A program made the translations under genes and the position numbers. DNA of 64,000 nt from positions 25,095,371 to 25,159,370 of the forward strand of contig OZ020487.1 in assembly GCA_963971405.1 (NCBI GenBank), written 5' to 3'. This DNA comes from Psococerastis gibbosa (Eukaryota > Arthropoda > Insecta > Psocodea > Psocidae). Numbering within the stretch: the first letter of the stretch is position 1; every line of letters begins with the position of its first letter. Of the stretch, positions 6,565 to 64,000 are shown one piece after another. The notes beneath the pieces are model-generated. The model ran no database searches and was not told the origin of the DNA. It was given only the letters and a program-made list of their open reading frames with translations.

Positions 6565-6790
6565 ATATAAATAAAGACTTTTTATTGTTTCTATTACTAA
6601 GCCAACCTAGCGGAGTTAGGGCTATAAAGCCCTCTCTTACACTAAACTAGGAAAGCCTGGGACCACCTGCTTTTTACATGCCCTCCGAAGCATGGCCAGA
6701 AAATGTAGGTAGTGTGGGACTCAAACCAACAACCTTTCGGGTGAAAGTCAGAGTCCCTACCACTACGCTACATGTATTGACTGACTATGT
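6565..6790 (-). mobile_element. tRNA-derived SINE (family A)
   Basis: On the minus strand it starts GTAGCGTAGTGGTAGG (A-box-like) and has GGTTTGAGTCCC (B-box-like). The arm CTGACTTTCACC suggests a tRNA-Glu (TTC) ancestor. A unique body with TGTAAGAGAGGGCTTTATAG follows, then a TTTATT-type tail. Other copies lie at 9002 and 26745. Confidence 0.7.
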
Positions 6791-18714: not shown

Positions 18715-19960
18715 CTGGCTTTGAGCAACACACCACCCTGCAATAAGCCAAGCCGATTCCAATGGAAGTGAATATCTGGCGGGTGAGTCTACTCTGGTTA
18801 AAGGCGGCTATTCCACCTACTAATTTGCTTCACTTATCGTTATCGTGGTGCCGACGTGGTAGCAAACATCATTAATAAGTCTCTACCATATTATAACTTA
18901 ATTTATAATAGATAAGTTAAGTATCTACATAATGGCCTCCTTAAAATATAGCAGAGACTTATTAATGATGTCTGCTACCACGTCGGCACCACGATTAGTG
19001 AAGCAAATTAGTCGGTAGAATAGCCGCCTTGAGCCGGGCCATGATTTTGAACATTTTCCGCCGATTTCATTTAGCTGGTGTTCCTGGCTTTGAGCAAAAC
19101 ACCACCCTGCAATAAGTCAAGTCGGTTCCAATGGAAGTGAATATCAGGCGGGTGAGTCTACTCTGGTTAAAGGCGGCTATTCCACCTACTAATTTGCTTC
19201 ACTTATCGTGGTGCCGACGTGGTAGCAAACATCATTAATAAGTCTCTACCATATTATAACTTAATTTATAATAGATAAGTTAAGTATCTACATAATAGCC
19301 TCCTTAAAATATGGCAGAGACTTATTAATGATGTCTGCTACCACGTCGGCACCACGATTAGTGAAGCAAATTAGTCGGTAGAATAGCCGCCTTAAGCCGG
19401 GCCATGATTTTGAACATTTTCCGCCGATTTCATTTAGCTGGTGTTCCTGGCTTTGAGCAAAACACCAGCCTGCAATAAGCCAAGTCGGTTCCAATGGAAG
19501 TGAATATCAGGCGGGTGAGTCTACTCTGGTTAAAGGCGGCTATTCCACCGACTAATTTGCTTCACTTTTCGTGGTGCCGACGTGGTAGCAAACATCATTA
19601 ATAAGTCTCTACCATATTATAACTTAATTTATAATAGATAAGTTAAGTATCTACATAATAGCCTCCTTAAAATATGGCAGAGACTTATTAATGATGTCTG
19701 CTACCACGTCGGCACCACGATTAGTGAAGCAAATTAGTCGGTGGAATAGCCGCCTTGAGCCGGGCCATGATTTTGAACATTTTCCGCCGATTTCATTTAG
19801 CTGGTGTTCCTGGCTTCGAGCAAAACACCAGCCTGCAATAAGCCAAGTCGGTTCCAATGGAAGTGAATATCAGGCGGGTGAGTCTACTCTGGCTTAAGCC
19901 GGGCCATGATTTTGAGTATTTTCCGCCGATGTCCTTTAGATGGTGTTGCTGTCTTTGAGA
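18715..19960. repeat. Tandem array of a 363-bp unit containing a hairpin MITE
   Basis: Three full units at 18715-19083 (369 bp), 19084-19446 (363) and 19447-19809 (363), then a fourth cut at about 19893 and joined to a diverged unit tail (19892-19960). Each full unit contains a hairpin with GCGGCTATTCCACC outer ends and GACGTGGTAGCAAACAT inner arms. The units are nearly identical; unit 1 carries a 4-6 bp duplication (TTATCG). Identical minus frames in units 2 and 3 are by-products. Confidence 0.92.
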
Positions 19961-42553: not shown

Positions 42554-43002
42554 GAAAGAAATGGCGGGGTTTAACTCCAGCAGATCGACGACCATTTGTG
42601 GAGGAAGCTGAGCGTCTTCGGGTCATTCACATGCAGGAACACCCCAACTACAAATACAGACCTCGAAGAAGAAAGCACAATAAGCGCGGCGGAGGGTCCA
42701 GCCCCCCGGGCGTGGGCAGTCCATCGTCCGCCACTTCGGGCGGGCGGCGCCCCTCGTCAACCCCCGGCCCCTACCCCGGCTCCCCCTCCACCAAGTACCA
42801 GTACAATTTCCCTCTGCCCCAATCGCAGTACTTACAGCAGGTAGCCTCCCCCATGCAGAGCCCTTACTACTACTCTAAGTCGCCCAGTACTTTCGGGTCC
42901 CCTTATCTGCACACCCCCGAGGCGTCCCCGCCCGGCACCCCTGAGCTCAAAGACTCCGTCCATGCTCCGCAAGGTAGCCACGAGTCGGATGATAGCAAAG
43001 AT
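42554..43002 (+). CDS. SoxF: SoxF exon with C-terminal half of HMG box and Pro/Ser-rich linker
   Basis: The acceptor is a T-rich tract ending TTTTAG at 42553 and the donor is GAT|GTAAGT at 43003. It enters in phase 1, completing a Gly codon, and leaves in phase 0. It encodes 149 full codons: HMG helix 3 and the basic tail [11 protein letters not shown], then a Gly/Pro/Ser-rich region with repeated SPxx motifs, ending in an acidic ESDDSKD. Confidence 0.93.
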
Positions 43003-46000
43003 GTAAGTTGTTTTTCAATTTCGTACTTTTTTTATAGCCTACGGTAAGATTGTACTTTAAATGGATATAGGATTTTGAAATGTAAATTAAGCCGTAATAA
43101 TGTTATACATTAGTAGCCTATATTCACCTACAGTAACTTCTAAACCTATATATGTTTAAAGGCTTGACGTCAGCTATACCTTAAGGAATGCTAATACAGT
43201 TGTACAGAGCAATGCGGTTCACAGTATAATTTTCTTGCATTTACTTTTACTTTACAATTTACTTTTTGGCAGTATTTCCTTTGTATTTTCCTAAATAAAC
43301 TAATTGGTGGATTTTGGTGAAATTTGACTCAAACGATTTTCTTGAAATTCACGTACATTGTAGTTGCTATTAACTTATACATAACCCTATAGCTCGCTGG
43401 CACCTTGATAGTTAGGTTCTGGGGGCAAAAAATAATAAGACCAAATTTTCATGAAAAACGAAACTTTTCTATCTATGCTTTCTTACTTCAGGTATTTTTT
43501 TATGTCTTAAATAGAGCAATAAAACCAAGCAGGTTGCTTTCCCAAGCAAAGGTTTGGTTTAAAAAAATATATATATATATTTTTTTTTTTAAAGAAATAC
43601 CTTGCCATTATTACTGAGTTATATAACATTGGCCTGCCCGTACCATCAACAAATTCAGTTGCTTTGTGTTAGGGAAAATCAAGGCTACCCAAATTTAACC
43701 CTAGGACAATTATTTACCATCAAACTACTCACATAATCTGTCACGGTAGTTACTGTATATTAGTTGATAATTAGAAAACATTGTAAGGGTTCACTCATAC
43801 GAGTTCTTTTTAGCTGGATTATTTTTTAGCGTGTTTAATTTTTGAATGGTTGATTTAGATTTAGAAATTATAAATAAGTTAATTTTTTTTGCAGGTTAAG
43901 ACATTAGACTGTAGTGGGAGGGACAAGAGTTCCACGTCTCTACCTACACCAGAAATGTCACCCCTAGAGCAAGAGAAAGAAGCAGAAAAGAAGAAATATG
44001 GTTGCTATGAAAACATTAGCCAGCAGCAGCAGCAGCATCAGCAGCAGCAAGGAGGCTACAGGTTCGCCAGGTACCAGCAGTACCCAAGCCCAGGTCTAGG
44101 CCACGGGCCAGGCCTCACGCAGACGCCCATAGCGGCCATGAGCCTCACCAACGGGGTCGTCATGATGTGCTCCAACCAACGTGCCTACGAACATACTGGT
44201 ATTGTCACAGGTAAGTGCAGCACCAATTTTTCATTTCAGCTGTGCCATGAAGCCTAAAAATTCCAAAAATGTGTTAGGGTTTGAATGTTTTACAATAGTT
44301 TTGTGCATATCGTACCGAACTGTAAATGAGAATATTGCAATACAGTAAAAATTGCACTTTTGTGGTGTCTTTCGAATTAAAATAATAACACTACCCGATG
44401 TAAACTGTTGTTTACTGTTGTTAAAAATATGCGTATATCTTTCGCCTTGCTTACCATACTAGAACACCTGCTGGCCTACTATGGCGATTATCCTTAATCT
44501 TATCCTGGGATCGAAATTGTAAACAAAATAATTATGCAATTGAAAGTGCTATTCAAAATTTGTCTGTTTATCCCCAGGAATATGTTAATACATAGTAGTA
44601 CATAGTAGGCCCGCTGAACTTCTGATTTTTTTGTTCAATTAACATGCGGTCACCGCAATTTAAAGCGATATGCTCGTGTGAAATTCAATGAGCGAATTGT
44701 AAAATATTCAAGAATGGTGATTTGAGAATTGAGTAAACCATTTCGACCACGCATAATAATTAACCACTTTGTCAAATATGTGGTAGTAGAGTATATTACA
44801 GCAGCGAGCAAGGAAGCAAAGTTCCTATAGGTATACGGTACTTACTTCTATCGTATTGGTAATCAACAAATTATTTAATGCAATGAAAATTGGTACTAGG
44901 CCTAGTATGTTACTTCGTTAGTTCAACATAAAATATCAAACTTCTCTATACGATTTCCCCGGTTGAGTGAATAGAAAATCCAAATCCACTAAATGGACAG
45001 AATTAATCATTATTATTTTATGCTTTTTGTGCTGATATAAGGAATTTATTTAGGCTTCCGTTTGCTACACCTAATGGGAAAGAATTATTATATCCGTCAC
45101 AGGTAGCTAGCCCTCATCCATCAATCAATTTCAAGGTTTGTCAGCTCCATTTCCGGTGGCGCATTTTAAATTATCCGATTCCACTTCTTATTACACATTG
45201 GCCTCCCACTGCGTCATGCTTCAAAACGTTATGGGGGATTCACTTGATGCTTGTTGAGATCTCATTCTTAACTTAAGAGCGTACAGAGTACAGTTAATTT
45301 TTGAAATTGTAGTTTTTTGATAAACATGATAATATTTTATAAACAATAACTTTTCACGTATAATCGATTATAGGCTATATATAAAAAAAACTAAAATTTC
45401 GAAAACTAAAAATACCTTATTATATTATGCATCAAGTAATCTTCTACAACTTAAATGAGCCAAATCTTTAATAACTTGCTTAGTTAATTAACTAAAAAAT
45501 AACAAATATTAAATTTCGGGCTGCCAATTTCCTACGGGCTGTACACACTCTTAACGTAACTGTAACGTTTACAAACATCGAGACAATTTGCGGCTGATAA
45601 GTAATGGGCGGATCTCATTCACACACATTTGAACAATATATACTGTATATGTATATACTGTTCGCCCAGAAAAGTTTGCAAATGCACATAAAAATATCCC
45701 GTAATGCTTTACCAAGTCCCGCCTCTCCATGTAAATTCCCTATGCTACATTTTCAAATCAGATAGAACTACTTTGCATGTTACATTGTACATATGGTACA
45801 TATAACACTGACATTAAATTAACTTTGGTTGGGGTCCAGTGGTTAAGACGACGCCCCGGTTAGGCGTAGATCGTGGGTTCGAATCCCGCCAAGCCCAGTT
45901 TTTTCCATATCCTCTAATTTCGGTTACTTTGCTTGTGTTTGTATACACAAAATTTATGGGGGTTCCATTACAAATTTAATGCATTAAGGTCACAAGTGGA

Positions 46001-49000
46001 CATTGCTTATTTTTTTTAGCTAAAATTGTTGATCTGTTGCACTTTTTACGAATTCACGACTCCAATGTCAAATTTATTCCATGTAAACACCTATAACGCC
46101 ATCAAGAAAGCGTGCGTGGCGATTCGACCAAGACGTTGTATTTTGTCAAACATCTTAAATCTGCACAGCATTGGAATTGTGACTTCTTTGTTTCTGTTGC
46201 ACTTCTGATGCGTGTATACATAATAGTCTCCTCAACCTACTGGTTGTGTTTTTATATTTTATTACGTAAAACTTAACCAAGAAAAACATTTTCACAATGA
46301 GTTCTGATGCGAGTACTAATTGATTACATTGATTTCCTTATGTTATGGAGAAGTTTTAAGAAATATTTTATCTATCAGACCAAAATACTAATACTAGCAA
46401 ATTGAAATTAATTTCACTCGGAACTACTTTTCATATAGGCCTATGGTAACTGCAGAGTGCAGATTGTTAATTTACCTGAAGTGAAGACGCCTAGTGATAA
46501 ATACGCAGAGGCTCTCCTTGGGCATTTGGTGACGACCATCAAGCTCTGATATTTCTTGTCACAGGCTGTCCAAGCTTAACAGTCAGCAATCATCCTAGTA
46601 TGAATATACATAATTATGAGGTTCCTTAATCCATATCATACTTTCATCACATTCGTCGAGATCGCGTAGTGAAGTATTGAAGTCTTTTTTCCTTTATATT
46701 TTTGTTGATTTTATACCTCGACGGACTCCTAGACTCTGTTATATCAGAATTGACGCATATCTGACAATAAATCACTGATATAACTTTCAACTTCCTTAAA
46801 TAGTTCGCAAAGGTTTAAGATCATCATTCATGTCTGCTAGTGAATTATCTTGCCTTACCAAACGGTTTATGCGGAAATGTTGCTTCAGTTTCACTGTTTT
46901 GGCCTTCCATCTTCCTCTTACTATGCCTGCTTCCTTTGGTAAGACTTACCACTCTTTTCTGTGGTCTGAATGCCCTTAACTTCGAAATTAACTGTCTACT
47001 TTCAAATTGATCCATTTTATAACACAGTATGGTAAGAAGAAAATTTTATAAATTTCTCAAATTCAAGAAACACACTAATAATATTTATAACAATAAATAT
47101 TACTTTGATTTTGTTCTAAGATGACCCTAACACCGTTCCACTAGCGTTGCTACTGTAGTTGAAGACAATTAACTAACATTCAGAAAATTTTAATTTTAAA
47201 TTTGACATTGGAGTCGTGAATTCGTAAAAAGTGCAACAGCTAGATCGACAATTTTAGCTAAAAAAAATAAGCCATGTCTACTTGTGACCTTAATGCATTA
47301 AATTTGGAATAGAACCCCCATAAGTTTTGTGTATACAAATACATGCAAAGTTGTTCTATCTGATTTGAAAATGCAGCAGAGGGGATTTACATGGAGAGGC
47401 GGGACTTGGTAAAGCATTACGGGATATTTTCATGTGCATTTGCAAACATTTCTGGGCGAACAGTACAAATAAATAATGTACAGTATAGACAAATTACACA
47501 TTGTATTGCAGTATTATAATATGATGTATAAGACTGACATTAAATTAACTTTGGTTGAAGTGGTAACCTTCGAAATTACACAATGCTGTATATACCGTCT
47601 GCAGGTGTATTTTTATTACCGTGGAAATTCAGGTAATACAATTCCTCGCTTTCATATTTCGTTGATGCTACAGCATGTAGGCAGCAGGCACAAGGCATTT
47701 TTAGGTGGCTTCCAAATAATCAATAATTCAACAGGGCCGTAGCCAGATTTTTTTTGGGGTCACCGGAGGTGAGGTAAGCTCAATATATTTAAAACGACTG
47801 CAAATATTTCGGGGGGGGGGGTGTCTGGACCCTAGCTACGGCCTTGATAGTCCAACTTTCTTAATTATTATATCTGTACCTGACGCTCGCTTTAGCCTTT
47901 AGGGCGACTTCGACCACACATTTTAAATCGTTTTGAGCAGTAAGGTTATCGAGCATTCTAAGGCTGTGGGATACGTGGTACCACAAAAACTGTATTTTGT
48001 ATAGAGATAGACTGAGCCAACAAAGCTTCTTTGAATTTATATACAACACTTTGGTAATTGAAATGTGACTGCAAGTTTATGATTATGCAACTAAGTTAAT
48101 TTCGTCCTAAATGACTCGTGGCTATCTTCTCACCCCAGCGATACAAGTTTCTAGAGCCTTCTTCTTAATACTTTTTAACAGTAAAATGTGTAAATTATAA
48201 TATATTATCTACTTTCTTACCTAATTACTTCTACTAGATACGTTACCGTATTTATTTTGAACTATTTTTTTTCGTGTACAGGGACATACTTTCCCCCGGT
48301 GGCTACCTCGCAGGAGTCCCAGTCGATGGCCAACAGTAATGTAAGCAGTGCCAACAGTCTGTACTCGACAGCGAGTGCCACGAGCATGGCTCCCTCGTCC
48401 GCCCCATCGTACATAGCCGAAACCTACGCTGCCGTCCACTACCAGAGCATTATTCGTCCCACTGAGCACTACACTGGTAAGATAATTTGGCTAATGAAAT
48501 GAAATGAAATGAAATGAAATGAAATGAAAAAAAAGAACTACTTTATTGCAAACAAAAGGCGAACAATAAGACTATAAAGCCTTGTTTTCATGCTAACATT
48601 CTGGCTAAGATGAACTGTTTAAATTTTTATTTTTTGTTTCTTGAGAATACTGATTCATGAGAGTTTTTGTTGATTAAGAAAAAATGTCATATTATATTTT
48701 AATAGTCGCTCGGTAAACAGATCTTTTTTTTAGTAGGAGAGGCAAAAATAAATAGATCCCAATTCTATTAATACAAAAGACATTTTTTTTTTTAAATAAG
48801 AAGATTATAATTGCATAGAAACAATTTAATGAGTGTATCCGATTGACCTCTTCAGTCGCCTCGGTAGGTTAGTACCCGTGTTGAGTTACGACGCGTCTCG
48901 CACAAGTGCAAGCACGTTACCACCTGGCCATCGAAGTCGATACTTTAGAACAACTAAAAAACGATCCCCCCCCCCCCTGGTGATCATGGTCCCTCTGGTA

Positions 49001-51340
49001 CCGAAAACTCCAATCTGCAAATTAAATGTTCAAAAAATATAGGAAACCCGTGATGTTCAGAATTGGAAAGTACACACTGTATTGTGTGAATAATTTATAG
49101 GCAGAACTGACACGTGTACATGTTCTACTACTTTACTGGAAATTCAGATTAGACCAGAAATGAAGAAATACTCATTGGCGTCATTGTAGTTCATTCAAAA
49201 TGAGCTAAAAAGCGGTGAGTTAACAAGAAATGGTCTAACAAGGCGTTGAAAATCATTATCAAACTCCTTTGTCATCCTGGCTCCTCATAGCTCAACTTCC
49301 TATCAATTTTTTTGTTTTTCCGGGAATATGGATCTTTTTATTGGCGAACTATCATATTGTCAGCAGCAGTGGAGTTTTTTTAGCCTGCTCAAGATAGATG
49401 GAATGTAAGGTGCCCATTCCATTGACCGGCTAGGGCTATTTCCAAAAACAGTGACGTGGTAGCAGACATTCAAGACTTAGGTGGCGTTTCCACCGACCTC
49501 GCATTGCAGAATTGACGGAAATGTTTATTTTCCTCTATGCCATAGTTAAAATTGATCAATGATCATACAGTAAAATCACAAACAAACAAACTAAAATTAA
49601 AAAATGGCGTCATGGTATATGTAAAGTACGAACATTTTAATAGATTTCTATAAAAAGAAAAATTCTAATTTCCGTCAATGTCATTTGCATTCTGCAATGC
49701 GAGATCGATGGAAACGCAACCTAAGTCTTGAATGTTTGCTACCACGTCACTGTTTTTGGAAATAGCCCTAGCCGGTCAATGGAATGGGCGCCTTATTGGT
49801 TTATTTTTTCTTAATTTGGACGATGGGCTAATATTCTTTACTCATTATATCGTAGTCCTACTAATTGTACCTAAGACTACCTTGTAAGCCTTACCAGTTG
49901 TATTCTACTGAAAATGAATAGTATAAAAATAATATAATGAATAGAATAAAATAATAGTTTTTCAGACATAATTTTTCGTCTATCTTTTTATTTTTTATTT
50001 TTTTATTTTTTGCTGTAAAATCCCCCAAAAATTGAGTTATTCACCCTCAGCGTTAAAATTGAATATATAAAAATGGTCCATAGACATGATTAGAGTGGAA
50101 CTTACCTACATTCCGAATTTCTTCAAAATCCATAAGAAGTTTACCCAGAAATCGACAGACCCATGACAGACAGACATTTCGTAAAATCCACTTTGTTTGC
50201 TTCCTGAGACCTAAAAAGGAGTAGGCTTAGGCGAAATCTCGAAATCAGACATTTCGACCATCACAAAACTTTCGTTATACTACGTATAAATTGGAAAGCA
50301 ACAAGTAGGCCTACATGTATTAGACCAGTTGATTTTTTTGAGTGTAGTGTCAACTTTAGGGCCACCAGCATAGTAAGAAACCAGTATTTCCCTGCCCCAG
50401 TTTTTTATGATCGCCCATTTTTATTGACACCAATGGCACCTAGGATGAACTTTGACGAGAGGTGTCATTTTTGCAGGCATATCATTTGAATATATTAAAC
50501 GACAGACTACAACTATAGATTGCGTGATTTTTAGTAGGCTAGATACTTAGTACCTTACTTACAATGCGTCTGTTTATTGGCTGGAACCGCTGGATAGCCT
50601 ATTGGAAAATTTAGGCTCTTTTCTAATTTGCTTCAAGTTCAAATGTCCAAATTTGAAATAATATAACTGAGGGTGAGAACTATAGATCTAAATTAATAGC
50701 AGCTACATCAGATTCGTGTCTTTTGACTGGCTTTCGGAGACACCTTTTTTGTTGACGAGCCTAGGCGATCAGTCAAGTGGACAACCACTTGCATTGGATA
50801 ATATTCGCACAGGTACGAAGAGAGAGTACAGTTCGGGGTAGAACAATAAGAACTTCAATTGTTTTTTTTTAGTCACAAGCGCAGCAAGGTAGAATTTTTT
50901 TTAAACCATCATTCGAGAATTTAATGAAGTTGTATATTTCAATTGACTTATTCCAATTTCCCTACTCTCTTTCAGGAGTTGCGAGTGGGCCTCAACTATC
51001 AGGGATGCCTCCCAATGATGACCGATCTCATCAATATAATCACATGGGCAACACTACCACACTTGTGTACCCGGTACAGCCCGGTGACAACCCAGGTGAG
51101 CTCCTACTCCCGGAGGAGCAGTGTGTCGACAGGAGCGAGTTTGACAAGTACATCAAGTACCCGCGGACTTGCGACTCGAACCATAACTACTCGCAGTTCG
51201 CGCAGACGCAGCTGCAGCCAGTTCAGGGTTATTATCCGCCTGTCGATGGTCCTCCCCAACATAGTTTTGAAGTTGTCAAAACTGAAGACGATTTCAGTGT
51301 AATTCTCGCTGATGTGAGGAAAACCTGTTACAGCAGCTAG
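42554..51340 (+). CDS. SoxF: SoxF-family HMG-box transcription factor (Sox7/17/18; fly Sox15), 5' partial; join 42554-43002, 43895-44210, 48282-48476, 50976-51340
   Basis: Sequence-specific nuclear HMG-box transcription factor. Four exons encode 441 residues. The first exon opens inside the HMG box ([15 protein letters not shown], then [19 protein letters not shown]), which reads as group F. A Pro/Ser-rich linker, a Gln/His-rich stretch, a Ser/Ala-rich segment and a C-terminal domain follow. The C-terminal domain has the EFDKYIKY core of the SoxF beta-catenin-binding motif and the final segment [17 protein letters not shown], which resembles the vertebrate SoxF tail. Introns are GT-AG with phases 0, 1 and 1 that all match across junctions; the exon at 42554 needs one base from upstream, agreeing with the known SoxF intron inside the HMG box. 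The N-terminal half of the box (the MNAFMVW segment) was not found in 1-42553. Exons are GC-richer than the introns. Family assignment is firm; orthology to a named vertebrate paralogue is not implied. Confidence 0.93.
43003..43894 (+). other. SoxF intron (892 bp), no insert seen
   Basis: AT-rich with a (TA)n/(T)n run at 43560-43590. No transposable element was recognised. Confidence 0.7.
43895..44210 (+). CDS. SoxF: SoxF internal exon, Gln/His-rich
   Basis: The acceptor is (T)8GCAG ending at 43894 and the donor is CACAG|GTAAGT at 44211. It has 105 codons plus one base. An [19 protein letters not shown] segment is followed by a run of Gln broken by one His (about 44020-44050), then a Tyr/Pro/Gly-rich part. 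The frame joins exactly to exons on both sides. The Gln/His run is a CAG/CAT repeat that may vary in length. Confidence 0.9.
44482..44595. repeat. Partial copy of the 223-692 foldback element in SoxF intron
   Basis: ATGGCGATTA, ATCCTGGGAT, TTGTAAACAA, GAAAGTGCTATTCAAAATTT and CAGGAATATGTTAATAC follow the order seen at 232-365. Only the left half is present. Confidence 0.65.
44596..45276. other. SoxF intron sequence, nothing recognised
   Basis: Unique-looking AT-rich intron sequence. Confidence 0.45.
45277..45550. mobile_element. TTAA-flanked foldback MITE, 274 bp, in SoxF intron
   Basis: TTAA at 45273-45276 and 45551-45554. The right end (GCTGCCAATTTCCTACGGGC then TGTACACACTC) matches 7450-7479. 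The left arm is shortened. Confidence 0.7.
45656..47465. repeat. Long inverted repeat with a 1.1-kb spacer, in SoxF intron
   Basis: The left arm 45656-46075 and right arm 47196-47465 are reverse complements, including TTCGCCCAGAAA, AATATCCCGTAATGCTTTAC, CTTAATGCATTAAA-type blocks and GAATTCACGACTCCAATGTC. The left arm is longer only because of an insertion at 45781-45925. The spacer 46076-47195 shows no transposase-like frame. Confidence 0.85.
45781..45925 (+). mobile_element. tRNA-derived SINE (family C) inserted in the left arm of the long inverted repeat
   Basis: Flanked by ACTTTGCATGT (45770-45780) and ACTTTGCTTGT (45926-45936); the uninterrupted sequence survives in the right arm, proving insertion. 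A 73-nt tRNA-like unit at 45825-45897 has CCAGTGGTTAAGACG (A box) and GTGGGTTCGAATCCCGC (perfect T arm and B box). The anticodon arm ACGCC-CCGGTTA-GGCGT gives GGT (Thr-like) but with C at position 33. The acceptor stem is degraded. Followed by TATCCTCTAATTTCGGTT. Confidence 0.85.
47470..47600. repeat. Copy of the 5' module that precedes family C SINEs
   Basis: ATTGCAGTATTATAATATGA, GACTGACATTAAATTAACTT and TGGTTGAAGTGGTAACC match 57516-57590 and, partly, 45781-45831, but no tRNA-like unit follows here. It starts directly after the right arm of the long inverted repeat. Confidence 0.6.
47732..47846. mobile_element. 115-bp G/C-tract hAT-like MITE, SoxF intron
   Basis: CAGGGCCGTAGCCAGATTTT and the inverse of TAGCTACGGCCTTG, with a G run of ten at 47811. 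The flanks match at only about 4 of 8 positions, so it is older than its relatives. Confidence 0.75.
48282..48476 (+). CDS. SoxF: SoxF internal exon, Ser/Ala-rich
   Basis: The acceptor is a T-rich tract ending TGTACAG at 48281 and the donor is CTG|GTAAGA at 48477. Both ends split Gly codons, matching the neighbouring exons. It encodes TYFPPV followed by a Ser/Asn/Ala-rich region and [18 protein letters not shown] pentanucleotide LINE tail begins only 16 bp after the donor. Confidence 0.88.
48492..48600 (-). mobile_element. LINE 3' tail with (GAAAT)n, 16 bp from the SoxF exon donor
   Basis: (GAAAT)n at 48493-48529, then on the minus strand GCAATAAAGTAGTTC (AATAAA) preceded by CTTATTGTTCGCC. 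Read on the minus strand it is a 3' UTR end with poly(A) signal and (CATTT)n tail, similar to 41380-41480. Confidence 0.6.
48815..48935 (-). mobile_element. SINE family B in SoxF intron
   Basis: Inverse of 9515-9665: ACAATTTAATGAGTGTATCC, CTCTTCAGTCGCCTCGGTAG, GTTGAGTTACGACG, CTCGCACAAGTG and GGCCATCG. A C run follows at 48966. Confidence 0.7.
49409..49792. mobile_element. 384-bp hairpin MITE, Harbinger-like, SoxF intron
   Basis: Arms of about 105 nt: GGTGCCCATTCCATTGACC, GTGACGTGGTAGCAGACATT and GGCGTTTCCACCGACCTC, with their inverses in the right arm. Flanks TAA (left) and TTA (right) suit the TWA preference of PIF/Harbinger. The loop (TAAAATTGATCAATGATCA ... ATGGCGTCATGG) is shared with 62823-63256. 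Confidence 0.82.
50001..50303. repeat. Dispersed repeat shared with 30241-30512, SoxF intron
   Basis: ATCCCCCAAAAATTGAG, AAATCCATAAGAA, AGACATTTCGTAAAA, TTCGACCATCACAAAACTTT and GGAAAGCAACA in the same order as 30241-30512. Includes a GACAGACAGACA run. Confidence 0.6.
50304..50975 (+). other. End of the last SoxF intron, nothing recognised
   Basis: AT-rich intron sequence ending in the acceptor CTCTCTTTCAG; no repeat recognised. Confidence 0.5.
50976..51340 (+). CDS. SoxF: SoxF terminal exon with beta-catenin-binding motif and stop
   Basis: The acceptor is CTCTCTTTCAG ending at 50975; the exon has 120 codons and a TAG stop at 51338-51340. [13 protein letters not shown] (about 51120-51160) matches the SoxF EFD-Q/K-Y motif known to contact beta-catenin. 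The end of the exon is tandemly duplicated into the 3' UTR (51341-51452). Confidence 0.92.
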
Positions 51341-51452
51341 TTCAGGGTGCTCACCCGCCCGTTGGCGGCCCTCCGCATTATAGTTTTGAAGTTGTCAACT
51401 GCGGAAGACGTCTGCTGATGCTGATGTGAGGAAAATCTGCTTTAACAGCTAG
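51222..51452 (+). repeat. Direct tandem duplication of the SoxF 3' coding end (51222-51340 and 51341-51452)
   Basis: The 119 bp that encode the last 39 codons and stop are followed at once by a 112-bp diverged copy. Both start TTCAGGGT and both end ACAGC(A/T)... with AGCTAG. The first part of the second copy still reads QG..PPVGGPPHYSFEVV in the equivalent frame, then a short deletion breaks the frame. Because the stop codon is in copy 1, copy 2 is 3' UTR. The copies differ at many sites, so the event is not recent. Confidence 0.88.
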
Positions 51453-52221: not shown

Positions 52222-54243
52222 GCCATCAACAGAACAGGTCTACAACGATGACACTTACAATACTTACAGTACAATTCACACGCAACCAAAAAATACACGC
52301 AAAGGCTGGCTTAAAAAAAACAAAAAAACAAAAAAAAAACTATAAAACAACAATTCACCCTACGGCACAGGCCCACCTACTTATAATAGCCAAGATATTA
52401 AAGTACGGTATACAAATTGATTATATAGATGAAATAAGAAGCGTCTTGAAATTCATATAATTAATTTATTAAAAAATTGAAAATTACGGTTTTTTAATTT
52501 TGGCGCAAAATCTCACTTAATTGAGAGTTTTTGTGCGTGGCGTCGCGTCAAAATAATCCTAGTGGTTTAGCCTACATATTTAACTCGTAATAAGTGAAAA
52601 ATTAAAATGTCTCTCTCCCAGTTAATATACCGCACACTTAGACAATGAATATTTTGAATCTCACCAGCAGTTGTAATGCCGCAATGCCTTTATTCCTACA
52701 TAAACAATATATACATTATTGTAATTTACAATTGACACATAATATAATAGGCTACGTAATACAATTAAATATAAGAAAATACACAGATATACTCAGCTTC
52801 CTTCTTCCACGATTGAATTTATAACTCTGTAACAACGTACTTTTAAGAATAGATTGTCAACGCACTGATTTGATGGCCAAGTACACATTACCTTATAAAT
52901 GGTACAGTATATGGTAGGCACTAGGTATTGGCCCTAGTCTTACGAAGGCAAAGTATGACGTTAAAAACTAAAAAGGTTATTTAATAGGTACCTACGGTTT
53001 GAACGCTGAGCGTGAAGTGAGTTTGTCAAAGTTGATGAAAGCAAACATTAAAATTAATTAGTTAAGCTCGACCTCAGGCAACTCTCGATTTGGATTACCC
53101 CATTAGCTGTTCATATTTAACTTATGAGCCCACGAAGGCAGCTTCGTGTGGATGTTAAATTTATAAATCATATTAACCGCTAATGAAGATCGTAAGAAAA
53201 GTTCGTGTTGGAAAGAAAAATACTTTGTTACCAGCCAGACCTGAGGGTCTTTTGTATCGTGTTGATAACTTTTCATTAGCTGCATGCAATAGAAAGGGGA
53301 TATGTTTTTCATATAGAGTAAATCTGGTTATCTATAGCCTACTTTGGGTTGATACGAATATGCTGTCGTTAGCTTACATGGCAGATAAGTAGTCTCGACG
53401 CTATGGGGACACCAAATCTAATGGGAGTCACTATGGTGTCTACTGGAATGTATAACTAATAGGTAAGTTAAACGAGATCCGTTGGGTAAGCTGTCTATCA
53501 TATTCTATACTAAGGAAACACTCATTTTTATAATTTTCTGGTTTGGAGTGAAAATGTAGCCTACATACCGTACCTTTATTTACTTATTGAAGTTTAAAAA
53601 AAAAATACAACATACCAGCCATCCCAGAGAAGTTAGGGCCATTATTGTATAGGTAGGTCCTCTCTTTTACGATCAACTGGGATGACGCAAGGCAACAAAC
53701 AGTCAAATTTAAACAGTGGATGTTACAGTATCATACAAGAACTCCATACATCTATATTAAATATACATGTATGGAGTTTTGTATGATACTGTAACATTAA
53801 ATTTTAATGTCTCATCATAATAATGCAGTGCATACAAGAAAAATCCAGCATTTAGTACCCATATGGGGCTTAAATCACTGACTGACATATTTTCAATTTT
53901 CCATGGAAAAACACAATACAGTACATAAAGCACATACACAGTATATACCCAATCAAAAAATAGGAGAAAAGGAAATAGGTACAGGCTACAAATACCTATA
54001 TATAAATTTAAGATGGATTACGGAGCTGCAGATACAAAATTGAATACGGTAATGTAAAGGGTTGATATAATTTTTAACAGCATGCGTATGGGCCGCAAGC
54101 ATGACAAAGAAGCATATATGCTTCGTAATGACTCTACCTAACCTCGTCAGCAGTACAGTAATTACATGCATCAGAATTCAGAAACACCTTTTTGCCCTAA
54201 ATATCGGGGTGGCTCCCACTGTGCGTCAGATAGGCCTACATTA
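51812..54243. other. Intergenic sequence with low-complexity runs; one palindrome listed separately
   Basis: Contains (AAT)n runs at 51945-51965 and 52187-52209. Frame 52161-52460 is a translation of that repeat. 53600-53690 loosely resembles SINE family A (GTTAGGGCC, CCTCTCTTTTACGATCAACT). No exon chain seen. Confidence 0.4.
53720..53797. repeat. 78-bp hairpin
   Basis: TGTTACAGTATCATACAAG then AACTCCATACAT faces its inverse across a 15-bp loop, with one or two mismatches. Confidence 0.75.
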
Positions 54244-57500: not shown

Positions 57501-57700
57501 TAGGCTACCCATAATATTGCAGTATTATATGGAGTATATATATAACACTGACTTTTTTAAATTAACTTTGGTTGAAGAGGCAACCACCTCGTTATAACTG
57601 AAATTAGAGGATAGAGAAAAACTGGACTTGGCCGGATTCGAACCCACAATCTACGCCTAACCGGGGCGTCGTCTTCACTGCTCGACCACAAGCCCGCACA
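57501..57700 (-). mobile_element. SINE family C with an intact tRNA-like head
   Basis: Minus strand 57695-57623 is a 73-nt tRNA-like unit: acceptor GGGCTTG pairs fully with CAAGTCC (one G-T), then D arm, anticodon arm ACGCC-CCGGTTA-GGCGT and T loop TTCGAAT. C at position 33 argues against a working tRNA-Thr. The tail TATCCTCTAATTTCAGTTAT follows. On the plus side it abuts the same module (ATTAACTTTGGTTGAAG) seen at 45815 and 47540, but here the tRNA unit is inverted relative to it. Confidence 0.75.
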
Positions 57701-59882: not shown

Positions 59883-59888
59883 TTTATT
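59883..59888 (-). terminator. Polyadenylation signal AATAAA of the small secreted protein gene
   Basis: AATAAA on the minus strand lies 65 nt downstream of the TAA stop, a normal spacing for a short arthropod 3' UTR. Confidence 0.6.
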
Positions 59889-59952
59889 AAAAGAGCGTTG
59901 TACAAAATGACTAGTCTATACCACTGTAGCTGTAGGTTGTTTTTCCTTTTGA

Positions 59953-60056
59953 TTAATTCCTGTGGTCGTCGGCAGGTTGCTTCACCCAGAATCCGTGGGC
60001 AGCGTGGTGTCCATCACTGGGCCCGCGGTAGACCTTTATGTGTACACGCCCATGGC
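59953..60056 (-). CDS. Exon 3 of the small secreted protein (C-terminal part, stop TAA)
   Basis: The acceptor is TTGATATTTCAG. Two bases complete a Gly codon, then 33 codons reading HGRVHIKVYRG, GHHAAHGFWVKQ and PADDHRN before TAA at 59955-59953. The block is distinctly GC-richer than its AT-rich surroundings, as expected for an exon. Confidence 0.75.
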
Positions 60057-62542
60057 CTGAAATATCAAATAGAAATTAAATCAATTATAAACCTTACTTT
60101 ATACAATATGAAGTATAGTATAATACAGGTATGTTACCGTAATTATAAGTAGTCCATTTTTTTTTTCTTAATATTGTAATATTCTACTTAGACTTTCCTG
60201 CAAGGTACTGTCCTAGTGATGGCTAATGATGAGGTTGTAATAGTTTTTGTACACTGTACATTTTGAAGTAAAATCATTTTCAACGCAAAGTAGAGTACCA
60301 TATACCTAGGTAGAGTTTTAGACTATTCGCAGACATGGTTTCATATGAATCTGCTATAAAATATCTCACACCTCATTGTGGCTTCTGGGTCATTGTGTGA
60401 ATGAGAGCTGGTTTGTAACAATAGTCCCACATGCACCACTTTTTAATTAATTAAAGTTAAATATTATTGACTTACGCGTTGCCTTTTAGTATTTTTATTT
60501 TATTTTAATGGAAAAAATAAAATACTGTAAAAATAAATAAAATGGGGTGTGACTCATTTTGCATGTTTCAAGCCTTTTTCATATACCTAACTAACATTTC
60601 TAGCTTTTAGGGGATTAAAATATTTTGTAAACAAAGAGTGACAGGGCCAATTTGAAAAAACTAATTAATTAATCCATGACAAATAGACCTTATTTGAAAA
60701 TAGTCAGATGAAAAATTCAGAAACAAATTCAAGTTTTTACAGTACATTTACATTTTCTCACCTACGGAAGGCTTTAATGAATTATGGAATAAGAACCTTT
60801 CTTTGATTTTAATGAATAATTATGGAATTCCTACCTCAAACAACGCCGATAGAGTGCATAAGAGAGTTTATAGAATGACAGTATAAATCAGTCTCAATTT
60901 AAATATGAATTTTTCATCTGACCATTTTTTATATTTCCGTGGCGGTTGAAAAAGAAATTAATTACTTTCGTTAAATTGACCCGGTAATTCTTTGTTTGCC
61001 AAATATTTTGAAATCTTGGCCTTAATAGGGCCTACTGCCTAGCCTTCTAGCAAGGCCGTGCCCAGGTTTTGATTTCGGGGGGGGGGTCCAATTATTTTTT
61101 GGCGTAATTCATTAGTGAATTTAGGAAAAATTCTTCAAACCATACAGGTTTACACACAAAAATTTATTTTTTTTTGGGGGGGGGGGTCCGGACCCCATGG
61201 ACCACCCGCCTGGGCACGGCCATGCCTTCTAGTTTGATCCGTCATGATGACCGATGTTTGGTAGCTAGTCAGTATTTCCCATACAATTCTTGATTCTACA
61301 ATAGTTTGATTTTTAACAATTTAATTTTGTACATTTGCTCACCTACAGAGCTTCAAAAAACGCAAATAGAATGCTTTAAAGAGAGTTTATAGAATGACAG
61401 TAGTCTATAAATCGGTAAATGGTCTCAATTTGATTCGAATTTTTCATCTGACTATTTTTTAAATTTAAGGAACAATAAATCCGTTGAAAAATAAATTTAG
61501 TAATCACTTTTGTCAAATTGATTCGGTAAATCTTTGTTTGCCAAATATTTTGAAATCTCTGCCTTCCTCTCCTTCTAAGTGTGATCCATCATGATGACCG
61601 ATGTTTGGTAGCTAGTCAGTACCTATTTCTATTGCAATTCTTGATTATAGTTTGATTTATAACAATTTACCATGATGTCCTGAAGCAGCAGGGACAAGAT
61701 CAGTGTCGATGAAAACGGGATTCTCAAGACTGGGTTCGGCTCTGTTGTCCAGAAGAGGCAGCTTGCGTGCTTCGACTACAGCAACTGCTACCACCACCAC
61801 AACCATAACACAAAATACCTGCAAAATATAATATTTATTTTATTTTACTTTATCAGTTTGTAAAAGGGGAGCCTGCACGGGACTTGCCCGTTGGGCTCCC
61901 CTTCCAAATGTAATTATAATGTAATTTGTACACTTGAGGAAGAAACAACTTATTTTTTATTTTTTATATACTATATACTTATTATATACTATTGTGGTAT
62001 ACTTAGAGGTTTTCCAGCTTAATTATAGCCGAAGATCGGCTTCAGTTTCAGATATGAAAGGCTAAAAATTTCGAATTCCTACATAACAAAATGTGGATTA
62101 TTATGAAGGACGACCAAATTATCTGTTATAACTACAGAAAAGTGGGTTATTAAAGTAGATAGTGCATACAAGATACAAGTTGTATATAACTGCATGCATT
62201 AGTGAATCCTAAACAGCAATTAATAGTTGTAGACACAGGATTACCTGTATATCATACCATACTGTAGTTAAGTCAAGTATTAATTGGACAGACTAGTTAC
62301 AACTATTCCATCAAAGGTAGTTTGCCAAGTAAACGGTAAATATTTATACCAAAACTCCAGCGAAGTAACGTACCGATAATTCGATACACAGTATCTCAAT
62401 GAGACTAACTTATTCGTTGCATACGGTATGTAAGCATGGAATAGGCCTACTCTCATGAATGTTCATCGATAACTTGTACAGCATTTCAAAATAATATTGC
62501 ATGACTATAACATACCGTGAAGCCTGCAACCTGTAGACCCAT
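59953..62542 (-). CDS. Small secreted His/Gly-rich protein, 92 aa, unrecognised family; join of complement 62516-62542, 61671-61818, 59953-60056
   Basis: Three minus-strand exons splice to a complete frame. Exon 1 encodes MGLQVAGFT and ends at a GTATGT donor. Exon 2 follows an ATTTTGCAG acceptor. Exon 3 follows a TTTCAG acceptor. The phases (0 then 1) match. Residues 1-26 form a signal peptide with a very hydrophobic core (VFCVMVVVVVAVAVVEA). The predicted mature chain of about 66 residues begins RKLPLL, has no Cys, contains eight His mostly in Gly-His clusters, and ends HGFWVKQPADDHRN. An AATAAA lies 65 nt after the stop. I do not recognise the family: a metal-binding, cuticular/extracellular or antimicrobial role is possible from composition but unproven. 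Start choice: the first ATG that joins in frame to the hydrophobic core, with G at -3 and +4. Gene structure is inferred from sequence alone. Confidence 0.75.
60612..61025. mobile_element. Foldback element in intron 2 of the small secreted gene
   Basis: ATTAAAATATTTTGTAAACA (60615) and GCCAAATATTTTGAAATC (61000) are inverse ends; AGATGAAAAATTCAG faces TATGAATTTTTCATCTGACC. Same family as 10771-11145. Confidence 0.65.
60742..61669. repeat. Diverged tandem duplication inside intron 2 (60742-61329 and 61330-61669)
   Basis: Shared blocks: ACATTT(G)CTCACCTAC, GAGAGTTTATAGAATGACAG, TTTTTCATCTGAC, TTTGTTTGCCAAATATTTTG, CATGATGACCGATGTTTGGT, AGCTAGTCAGTA and ATTCTTGATT. Copy 1 carries the MITE at 61051-61224, copy 2 does not. 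Copy 2 ends at the splice donor of exon 2. Confidence 0.85.
61051..61224. mobile_element. 174-bp G/C-tract hAT-like MITE, exact 8-bp TSD, in intron 2
   Basis: CAAGGCCGTGCCCAGG and the inverse CATGGCCGTGCCCAGG. CCTTCTAG is duplicated at 61043-61050 and 61225-61232; the unfilled CCTTCTA site is present in the duplicate copy near 61570. Confidence 0.9.
61671..61818 (-). CDS. Exon 2 of the small secreted protein (signal peptide core and N-terminal mature part)
   Basis: The acceptor is TATATTTTGCAG and the donor is CATG|GTAAAT. It has 49 codons plus one base: the Val-rich signal core, then RKLPLLDNRAEPSLENP and an acidic VFIDTDLVPAASGHH segment. The donor sits exactly where a duplicated intron segment ends (61669). 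Confidence 0.75.
61819..61925 (-). mobile_element. LINE 3' tail next to the exon 2 acceptor
   Basis: Minus strand: GGGGAGCCCAACGGGCAAGT then CCCGTGCAGGCTCCCC, a nested hairpin, then TAAAATAAAATAAATATT. It looks like the structured 3' end and A-rich tail of a LINE. The tail runs straight into the TATATTTTGCAG acceptor of exon 2. Confidence 0.5.
62516..62542 (-). CDS. Exon 1 coding part of the small secreted protein
   Basis: ATG at 62542 gives nine codons (MGLQVAGFT) ending at a CACG|GTATGT donor, phase 0. These residues supply the start and n-region of the signal peptide completed by exon 2. The 5' UTR extends upstream by an unknown length; I see no convincing TATA box. Confidence 0.7.
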
Positions 62543-62822
62543 ATCTATTATACTACTCAGTAAGTAGCAATGAGGCTGTAGTAAAATAATTGAAAATTAC
62601 TAGTTACTGTGTGGTATACCCTATGTCGGTGTAGTTTAGGGCACCACTTATGATTCAACAAAGTCACATCATATTCAATTTCGTCAGATTTCACTTTCAA
62701 ATAACCAAATTCAAATTGGACTAATATTGTACCTTAGCGCTCTTTCATGTGCAAATACACTAGCCTCCACTGTAAAAACGTGGCTATGTAAGAGTCGAAA
62801 CCGTTGTACCAATTATTCATAA

Positions 62823-63256
62823 GGCGCCCATTCCACATACGTACAACGTCAATGAAAATTATGAAATTGAAGGACATTTCAATTTTACTCTGCCATTGTT
62901 AAAATTGATCAATGATCAGAGAGTAAAATCACAAACAATGAAACAAACAATCTAAAATTAAGAAATGGCGTCATGGGATATGACAAGTACAACTATTTTA
63001 ATTGATTTCTCTAAAAAAAAAGCATTTCTGCATAAAAATTATAATAAGGTTTAAATAATAAGGCGACGAAGAAAACAAATAGGCTACAATTTCAAGAAAC
63101 AAATGCAAACAAATTTCAAAAATTTGGCGCATACGCTTCAATTAAAAATTGTCAATTTTTGAAAAAACATATGGAATGGCCCCCATCAATGAGAAATTGA
63201 AATTTCCGTCAATTTCATAATTTTCATTGACGTTGTACGTATGTGGAATGGGCGCC
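62823..63256. mobile_element. 434-bp Harbinger-like hairpin MITE with TAA TSD
   Basis: Termini GGCGCCCATTCCACATACGT and the exact inverse, arms of about 55 nt extending to AAAATTATGAAATTGA. TAA at 62820-62822 and 63257-63259. The interior shares TTAAAATTGATCAATGATCA and AAATGGCGTCATGG with 49409-49792. It lies about 280 bp upstream of the start codon of the small secreted gene. Confidence 0.9.
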
Positions 63257-63259
63257 TAA

Positions 63260-64000
63260 CCAGCATATGGCTGATGAGTCATGTCCACCTCATCCAATAG
63301 CCTACTGACTTGCACCGTTGTCCGACAAGCGGCCCAGACCAGGGGCTCCAGAGCCAAGGGGTGCCAAAAACAGCCCAAAAATAATTTAAAAATTCGAATT
63401 GTAATTAAAAATATCGGCTATTAAAAAAGTAAAATTATTGCTATAATTAAAATAAAATAAATTTCTGTAGTTTTGAATACCTCTTTGTTACGTGCTTGGA
63501 AAGGGCGCAAAAATTAGCCACAACATTGCAAAATAATGTGGATTTTGAAAAACATTTAAAAAAGAGTTGAAAACGTCAAGCGATGAACGGGAGAATTTCA
63601 GCGTGTGATGATTTGGAACAGTTTGACAAGGCCTCAAGGGAGATTTTAAAACTAGGAATTATGAAGGGGCGCCATCTTAAAATATTTGACGAGAAAGTTT
63701 GATAAAATTGATCCCACATATATACCATATTCTACTCTGTTAGAAAAATATGAGGCGAAGAGTCTGTGCACACGACGTAAAATTGCTGATGCCATATATA
63801 TATCTATAAAGTATTAAATGGCCTAGAAGACAATCAAAATTTCTTGAGCAAACTAAATTTTATTGCACCCTAGTTTCCAACAAGAAATTTTAACTTATTT
63901 TACCAGCCGCAAAACAGGATTGACGTAGCCATAAATTCTCCAATAAACAGGCTCACTCATTTACTAAATGATCATGACACCTTAGATCCATTTATGCAAA
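63260..64000. other. No gene seen
   Basis: AT-rich end of window; no coding frame, repeat or splice-consistent exon recognised. Confidence 0.4.

Follow-up and report, generated by a model that had tools for sequence, protein, structure and literature searches.

Does the minus strand at the right-hand end of this stretch of the Psococerastis gibbosa genome encode a small secreted protein, and what might such a protein do? The stretch analyzed (hereafter the window) spans 64,000 nucleotides (C12:25095371–25159370); the whole genome comprises 409 Mb in 68 contigs. The first-pass annotation had described a complete three-exon gene, in which minus-strand blocks of 27, 148 and 104 nt, separated by introns of 697 and 1614 nt, join into a 279-nt frame encoding 92 aa followed by a stop codon.

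The second and third of these blocks, the stop codon and the polyadenylation signal are all present where they had been placed. Coding exon 2 (61671–61818, minus strand) encodes the hydrophobic core of a signal peptide, the likely cleavage site VEA/RK and an acidic linker, and ends in phase 1. Coding exon 3, which includes the stop codon (59953–60056, minus strand), encodes the His/aromatic C-terminal module HGRVHIKVYRGPSDGHHAAHGFWVKQPADDHRN, and an AATAAA signal (59883–59888, minus strand) follows 65 nt 3′ of the stop. The GC content of the claimed exons is 50–59%, as opposed to 31–34% in the introns and flanks. Scored with a generic matrix for animal splice sites, the acceptors rank in the top 0.2% and 0.9% and the donors in the top 1.6% and 4.1% of all window AG and GT dinucleotides, respectively. 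Intron 2 (60057–61670, minus strand; 1614 nt, phase 1) matches in position and phase the intron of a paralogue on contig C15 described below. It also contains a diverged local duplication (61669–61353 and 61323–60836, two pieces with ~85% and 76% identity), the first copy of which starts at intron base 2, abutting the exon 2 donor, and the second copy of which is split at ~61220–61050, as judged by eye, by an insert whose inverted ends are of the GGCCGTGCCCAGG type.

The first exon is very probably located outside the window. A candidate at 64442–64481 in window-style numbering (C12:25159812–25159851, minus strand), which begins 442 bases beyond the window end, comprises a leader and an ATG followed by a short coding part that ends at a donor, and a putative TATA/Inr promoter accompanies it. 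Its coding part, ATGGCCAGCAAAACG (64456–64442), reads MASKT and runs into the donor ACG/GTAAGT in phase with exon 2, with a probable intron 1 extending from 61819 to 64441 on the minus strand (61819–64000 within the window). TATA boxes sit at about −31 and TCAGT is the arthropod initiator; here, the A of the Inr TCAGTT lies at 64481, 25 nt of leader separate it from the ATG, and TATAAA begins at 64512, that is, at −31, 31 nt from the Inr A. Five TATA+Inr pairs occur in the whole window on both strands, and the sole pair on the minus strand of a 10-kb region formed by the last 2 kb of the window and the 8 kb beyond it (L004) is the one at the MASKT exon. The same region holds three phase-0 ATG-to-donor stretches of at most 150 nt with a donor score of at least 2. 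The MASKT donor scores 6.56, versus 3.75 for the originally proposed MGLQVAGFT exon (62516–62542, minus strand) and 3.68 for a candidate at 67449–67363 (MKSLIFSS...), which has a basic residue and is devoid of a TATA+Inr pair. In 128 kb of strand, five donors score at least 6.5 and have an open phase-0 ATG no more than 150 nt away, or 0.10 per 2.6 kb; four of these five are, by their letters, copies of one repeat.

Joining MASKT to VFCVMVVVVVAVAVVEA puts a basic residue N-terminal to the hydrophobic core, a feature missing from the original version, and yields a predicted 88-aa protein, MASKTVFCVMVVVVVAVAVVEA followed after cleavage by RKLPLL. Stretches like MGLQVAGFT are expected ~0.65 times per 2.2 kb, and the TCATTG at 62573 near that exon is not accompanied by a suitably spaced TATA box. 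We rejected MGLQVAGFT as the main start on account of its weaker donor, its missing basic residue and the better first exon beyond the window; it is probably unused or at best an alternative first exon, and the 92-aa protein gives way to a probable one of 88 aa. Initiation at Met14 (numbering of the 92-aa version) would produce 79 aa and leave a very short signal peptide. Of the gene first reported, exons 2 and 3, the stop and the polyadenylation signal are thus retained, and exon 1 and the claim of completeness are not. The three-exon splicing and the use of this promoter are predictions from the genomic letters.

The mature part, counted from Arg27 of the 92-aa version, has 66 aa, among which are 8 His (12%), 6 Gly and no Cys, in agreement with the Cys-free His/Gly-rich composition reported earlier. 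Secretion, also proposed at that stage, is probable: the hydrophobic core reaches a best 12-residue mean hydropathy of 3.6 and the residues at −3 and −1 of the likely cleavage site are allowed ones. The net charge of the mature chain is −0.15 at pH 7.4 and +6.4 at pH 5.5, and the pI is 4.4 for the N-terminal part versus 9.7 for the C-terminal 37 residues. AlphaFold returned a poor model of exon 3 alone (pLDDT 65.6, pTM 0.20), that contains only two strands of three residues each and nothing clearly resembling a hairpin.

The protein had been called unrecognized, and it remains so with respect to the libraries searched. Pfam searches up to E 10 with the mature 66 aa, the C15 paralogue and each version of the precursor (92, 88 and 79 aa) returned no family of any kind, antimicrobial or other, and the prokaryote library NCBIfam gave no match for the 88-aa version or the paralogue. 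A sequence search of the PDB with the 92-aa version returned 5 matches up to E 10, none of them convincing; the best, a cytochrome subunit (E 0.042), was not taken as homology. The same query produced 16 and 300 pattern matches in viral and GTDB contigs, respectively, none of which was confirmed, as expected for an animal gene. Nine peptide words representing the module or close variants did not occur in any paper of the collection searched. Relatives may well be present in public databases as uncharacterized proteins.

What decides whether the gene is real is its relative within the same genome. Searching the genome with the exon 3 peptide pointed to two places, the window gene and C15:4769099–4769197 (E 3.2e-11, 79% identity), and the reverse search with the paralogue peptide recovered the identical two places; since scoring was confined to single exons and to the top candidates, two family genes is a lower bound. 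The paralogue comprises exons at C15:4767959–4768196 and 4769091–4769209 on the plus strand, which join into a 118-aa protein running from MFYWQVFLSVGLLILSLTSA to ASGYGHHHGRVHIKVFRGPDDHHFAPHGYWVKQPADDGRNYRR with a signal-peptide-like start in the upstream exon. The intron common to both genes is in phase 1 and lies immediately before the module, preceded by Ala-Ser-Gly in both. Three further DNA matches of the GHHGHG type in this genome (L001–L003) were dismissed, as they are short and do not represent paralogues.

The C-terminal modules of the two genes are identical at 26 of 33 residues and share the consensus HGRVHIKV[YF]RGPxDxHxxxHG[FY]WVKQPADDxRN. Codon positions 1, 2 and 3 are identical in 26, 27 and 12 of the 33 codons. 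With ~20 synonymous differences on ~20 sites, pS is 0.984 and saturated, so that dS is not calculable, whereas 14 nonsynonymous differences on ~79 sites give a pN of 0.178; the counts are small and the contrast is large. Since pS is saturated while pN is low, the comparison of the two sequences indicates that the exon 3 module is under protein-level selection across an old duplication. Conservation had been proposed for three motifs: the paralogue bears this out for HGRVHIKV and for HG-aromatic-WVKQPADD, and GHHGHG is less strictly kept. Six of the eight His, all within the last 37 residues, are kept in the paralogue; H76 and H90 (numbering of the 92-aa version) are not. Exon 3 therefore has a homologue within its own genome and exon 2 has none that we found, the sole match to exon 2 in the 409-Mb genome being exon 2 itself; the paralogue linker is longer and not confidently alignable with that of the window gene. 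The paralogue's ATG coincides with the edge of an exon, and the ~15.9 kb examined upstream of it revealed no TATA+Inr pair.

The opposing view, that intergenic DNA happened to contain open blocks or that a dead copy was mistaken for a gene, draws on simulations and on codon usage. We compared the original model, including its exon 1, with simulated 64-kb strands generated by a third-order Markov process. At thresholds set to the observed values, the full model with a hydrophobic start arose in 0 of 5776 strands, the three-exon model irrespective of that start in 3 of 5776 and an exon 2–exon 3 chain in 9 of 5776, and the claimed gene was the sole full model in the window; these strict thresholds were taken post hoc from the observed gene and favor it. 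At loose thresholds, full models arose in 65 of 4222 strands and exon 2–exon 3 chains in 2131 of 4222, and the window minus strand gave two full models, the second of which, at 54171–50105, is probably noise. Codon usage modeled on the neighboring Sox exons did not single out the claimed frames in exon 2 or exon 3 and lends the gene no support: an antisense frame outscored the claimed one in both (0.31 versus −0.23 and 0.20 versus 0.05, respectively), and 513 of 5000 (exon 2) and 2349 of 5000 (exon 3) letter shuffles reached the claimed frame's score. The proportion of purine-any-pyrimidine codons was mixed across the two exons, as the claimed frame came out highest in exon 2 (0.37 versus 0.14 and 0.27 for the other sense frames) and second in exon 3 (0.32, 0.15 and 0.26 for frames 0, 1 and 2, the claimed frame being frame 2). 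These chance statistics are not decisive alone. The exon 3 paralogue and its selection pattern counter both the chance-frame and the pseudogene versions, as do the common intron phase, the stop-free frame and the predicted promoter with its in-phase first exon; the C15 paralogue nearly refutes this alternative, which we regard as extremely improbable, and decides for a real gene. The window gene is almost certainly a genuine member of a family of at least two genes, and because the C15 copy retains the C-terminal piece, it looks useful to the animal.

Our tentative preference, held at somewhat less than an even chance, is that the product has a structural or binding role outside the cell, in the cuticle or another secreted matrix. 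The TATA/Inr promoter just beyond the window would drive the gene, and splicing of MASKT, the signal core with its acidic linker and the C-terminal module would yield the 88-aa precursor, of which ~66 aa would be exported outside the cell after signal cleavage. The working part would be the 33-residue C-terminal module, with its kept His, Trp and aromatic positions, leaving the linker free to vary. Its His side chains might act as quinone cross-linking or binding sites, as proposed for His-rich cuticular proteins. One report describes such proteins in silkworm scales with 6–45% His, mostly of the RR-2 type with some CPLCP, and one with 45% His that laccase2 cross-linked into films in vitro (PMC8062583). 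This reading draws on the inferred secretion, the His content, the kept His and aromatics and what has been published about how His-rich cuticular proteins are used. Against it, nothing direct puts the product in the cuticle, and it carries no chitin-binding consensus: a CPR cuticular protein (Rebers and Riddiford consensus) was rejected as no chitin_bind_4 match was found up to E 10. A genome search with chitin_bind_4 (PF00379) scored 118 candidates, of which 105 match, all 105 above the cut-off, which marks the genome as that of an arthropod; none lies within the window range or at the C15 paralogue, and the nearest on the same contig is at C12:26.04 Mb, ~0.88 Mb away. The poor exon 3 model, the failure to find a homologue of exon 2 and the unsupportive codon usage also count against the cuticle or matrix reading, and the charge shift with pH equally fits a pH- or metal-dependent role.

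That last point would suit a secreted metal-binding or pH-switch protein, possibly a hemolymph or gut carrier, that would hold Zn, Cu or Ni on the GHHGHGRVH and GHHAAH His clusters. The change from a charge of ~0 at pH 7.4 to +6.4 at pH 5.5 is in keeping with it, and the retention of six of eight His in the paralogue is suggestive; the loss of H76 and H90, the lack of Cys and the lack of a convincing PDB relative speak against it and leave it unlikely. None of six upstream regulatory motifs, each expected less than once, was found in the 1 kb upstream of the predicted start site, among them the TGCRCNC metal-response element (0.41 per kb in the window), whose absence is weak evidence against a metal-related role. 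Also weak is the absence from the same 1 kb of a kappa-B-like site (0.73 per kb in the window) as an argument against an inducible immune peptide, in which an acidic pro-part would precede a cationic His/Gly-rich C-terminal peptide. The difference in pI between the two parts, the more cationic state at low pH and the small TATA/Inr gene agree with such a peptide, but no dibasic processing site lies between the acidic and cationic parts, and the mature net charge is near 0 at neutral pH. Saturated synonymous sites alongside few amino-acid changes would also be unlike fast-evolving defense peptides, and we consider an immune role improbable. The probability is similarly low for a secreted signaling or gland-specific (salivary or reproductive) protein whose C-terminal module binds a receptor or partner; strong conservation limited to the 33-residue module beside a freely changing linker would suit it, but the mature chain is without an internal dibasic release site, no positive pointer to a gland emerged and the weak exon 3 model offers two three-residue strands only.

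The surroundings of the gene include a SoxF-group gene on the plus strand (42554–51340; exons ~42554–43002, containing the second part of the HMG box, 43895–44210, 48282–48476 and 50976–51340), the best PDB matches of which are SOX-17 and SOX-18; it is uninformative on the function of the window gene. Positions 51214–51279 are repeated at 51333–51398 with 80% identity, across and after the Sox stop, a pattern resembling a tandem duplication of the gene's end. Two tRNA-like sequences (45827–45897, plus strand, and 57623–57695, minus strand) are 89% alike over 75 nt, and a similar one is visible by eye inside the intron of the C15 paralogue (L007 ~6620–6695); instead of tRNA genes, these may be copies of a SINE derived from a tRNA. 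A satellite-like array at 18715–19897 comprises 3.2 copies of a 363-bp unit with 97% matches and internal inverted repeats. Elsewhere in the genome, chitin_bind_4 cuticular-protein genes form dense clusters at C1:29.12–29.41 Mb and C12:15.36–15.47 Mb; the C1 cluster contains six pairs with equal scores at ~58.8-kb spacing, which suggests that the segment was duplicated recently or is duplicated in the assembly.

The window gene and the C15 paralogue constitute a small family, new with respect to the libraries searched, of an ordinary kind of gene. Annotation easily misses or mis-starts small secreted proteins devoid of Cys or a Pfam domain; here, a within-genome duplicate supplies protein-level evidence independently of transcripts, and the sequence adjoining the window yields a better first exon. 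It is conceivable, though on balance doubtful, that the pattern HGRVHIKV[YF]RGP...HG[FY]WVKQPADD defines an arthropod extracellular module not described so far, duplicated long ago and rich in kept His and aromatics; it would bind metal or matrix, be carried by secreted scaffolds that are otherwise free of constraint and occur well outside this species. The module is short and defined, searchable across arthropods and testable as a peptide; a wide distribution would mean that an extracellular module had gone undescribed, and should it already be annotated in relatives as an uncharacterized protein, the gain would lie in an improved gene model and a family with a clear definition.

Holotricin-3 and tenecin-3 are small, secreted, His/Gly-rich antimicrobial peptides of insects. 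By this description the window gene product resembles them in its size, probable secretion and composition and differs in being non-repetitive, in its Trp-containing conserved module and in its net charge near zero. The His-rich cuticular proteins are mostly RR-2, whereas the window gene has no chitin_bind_4 match even at E 10; its 12% His falls within their range of 6–45%, and secretion, inferred here, would be common to both (PMC8062583). The C15 paralogue is set apart by its 118 aa, longer linker, ATG at an exon edge and lack of a detected upstream TATA+Inr pair, and is like the window gene in its signal-peptide-like start, variable linker, phase-1 intron and C-terminal module.
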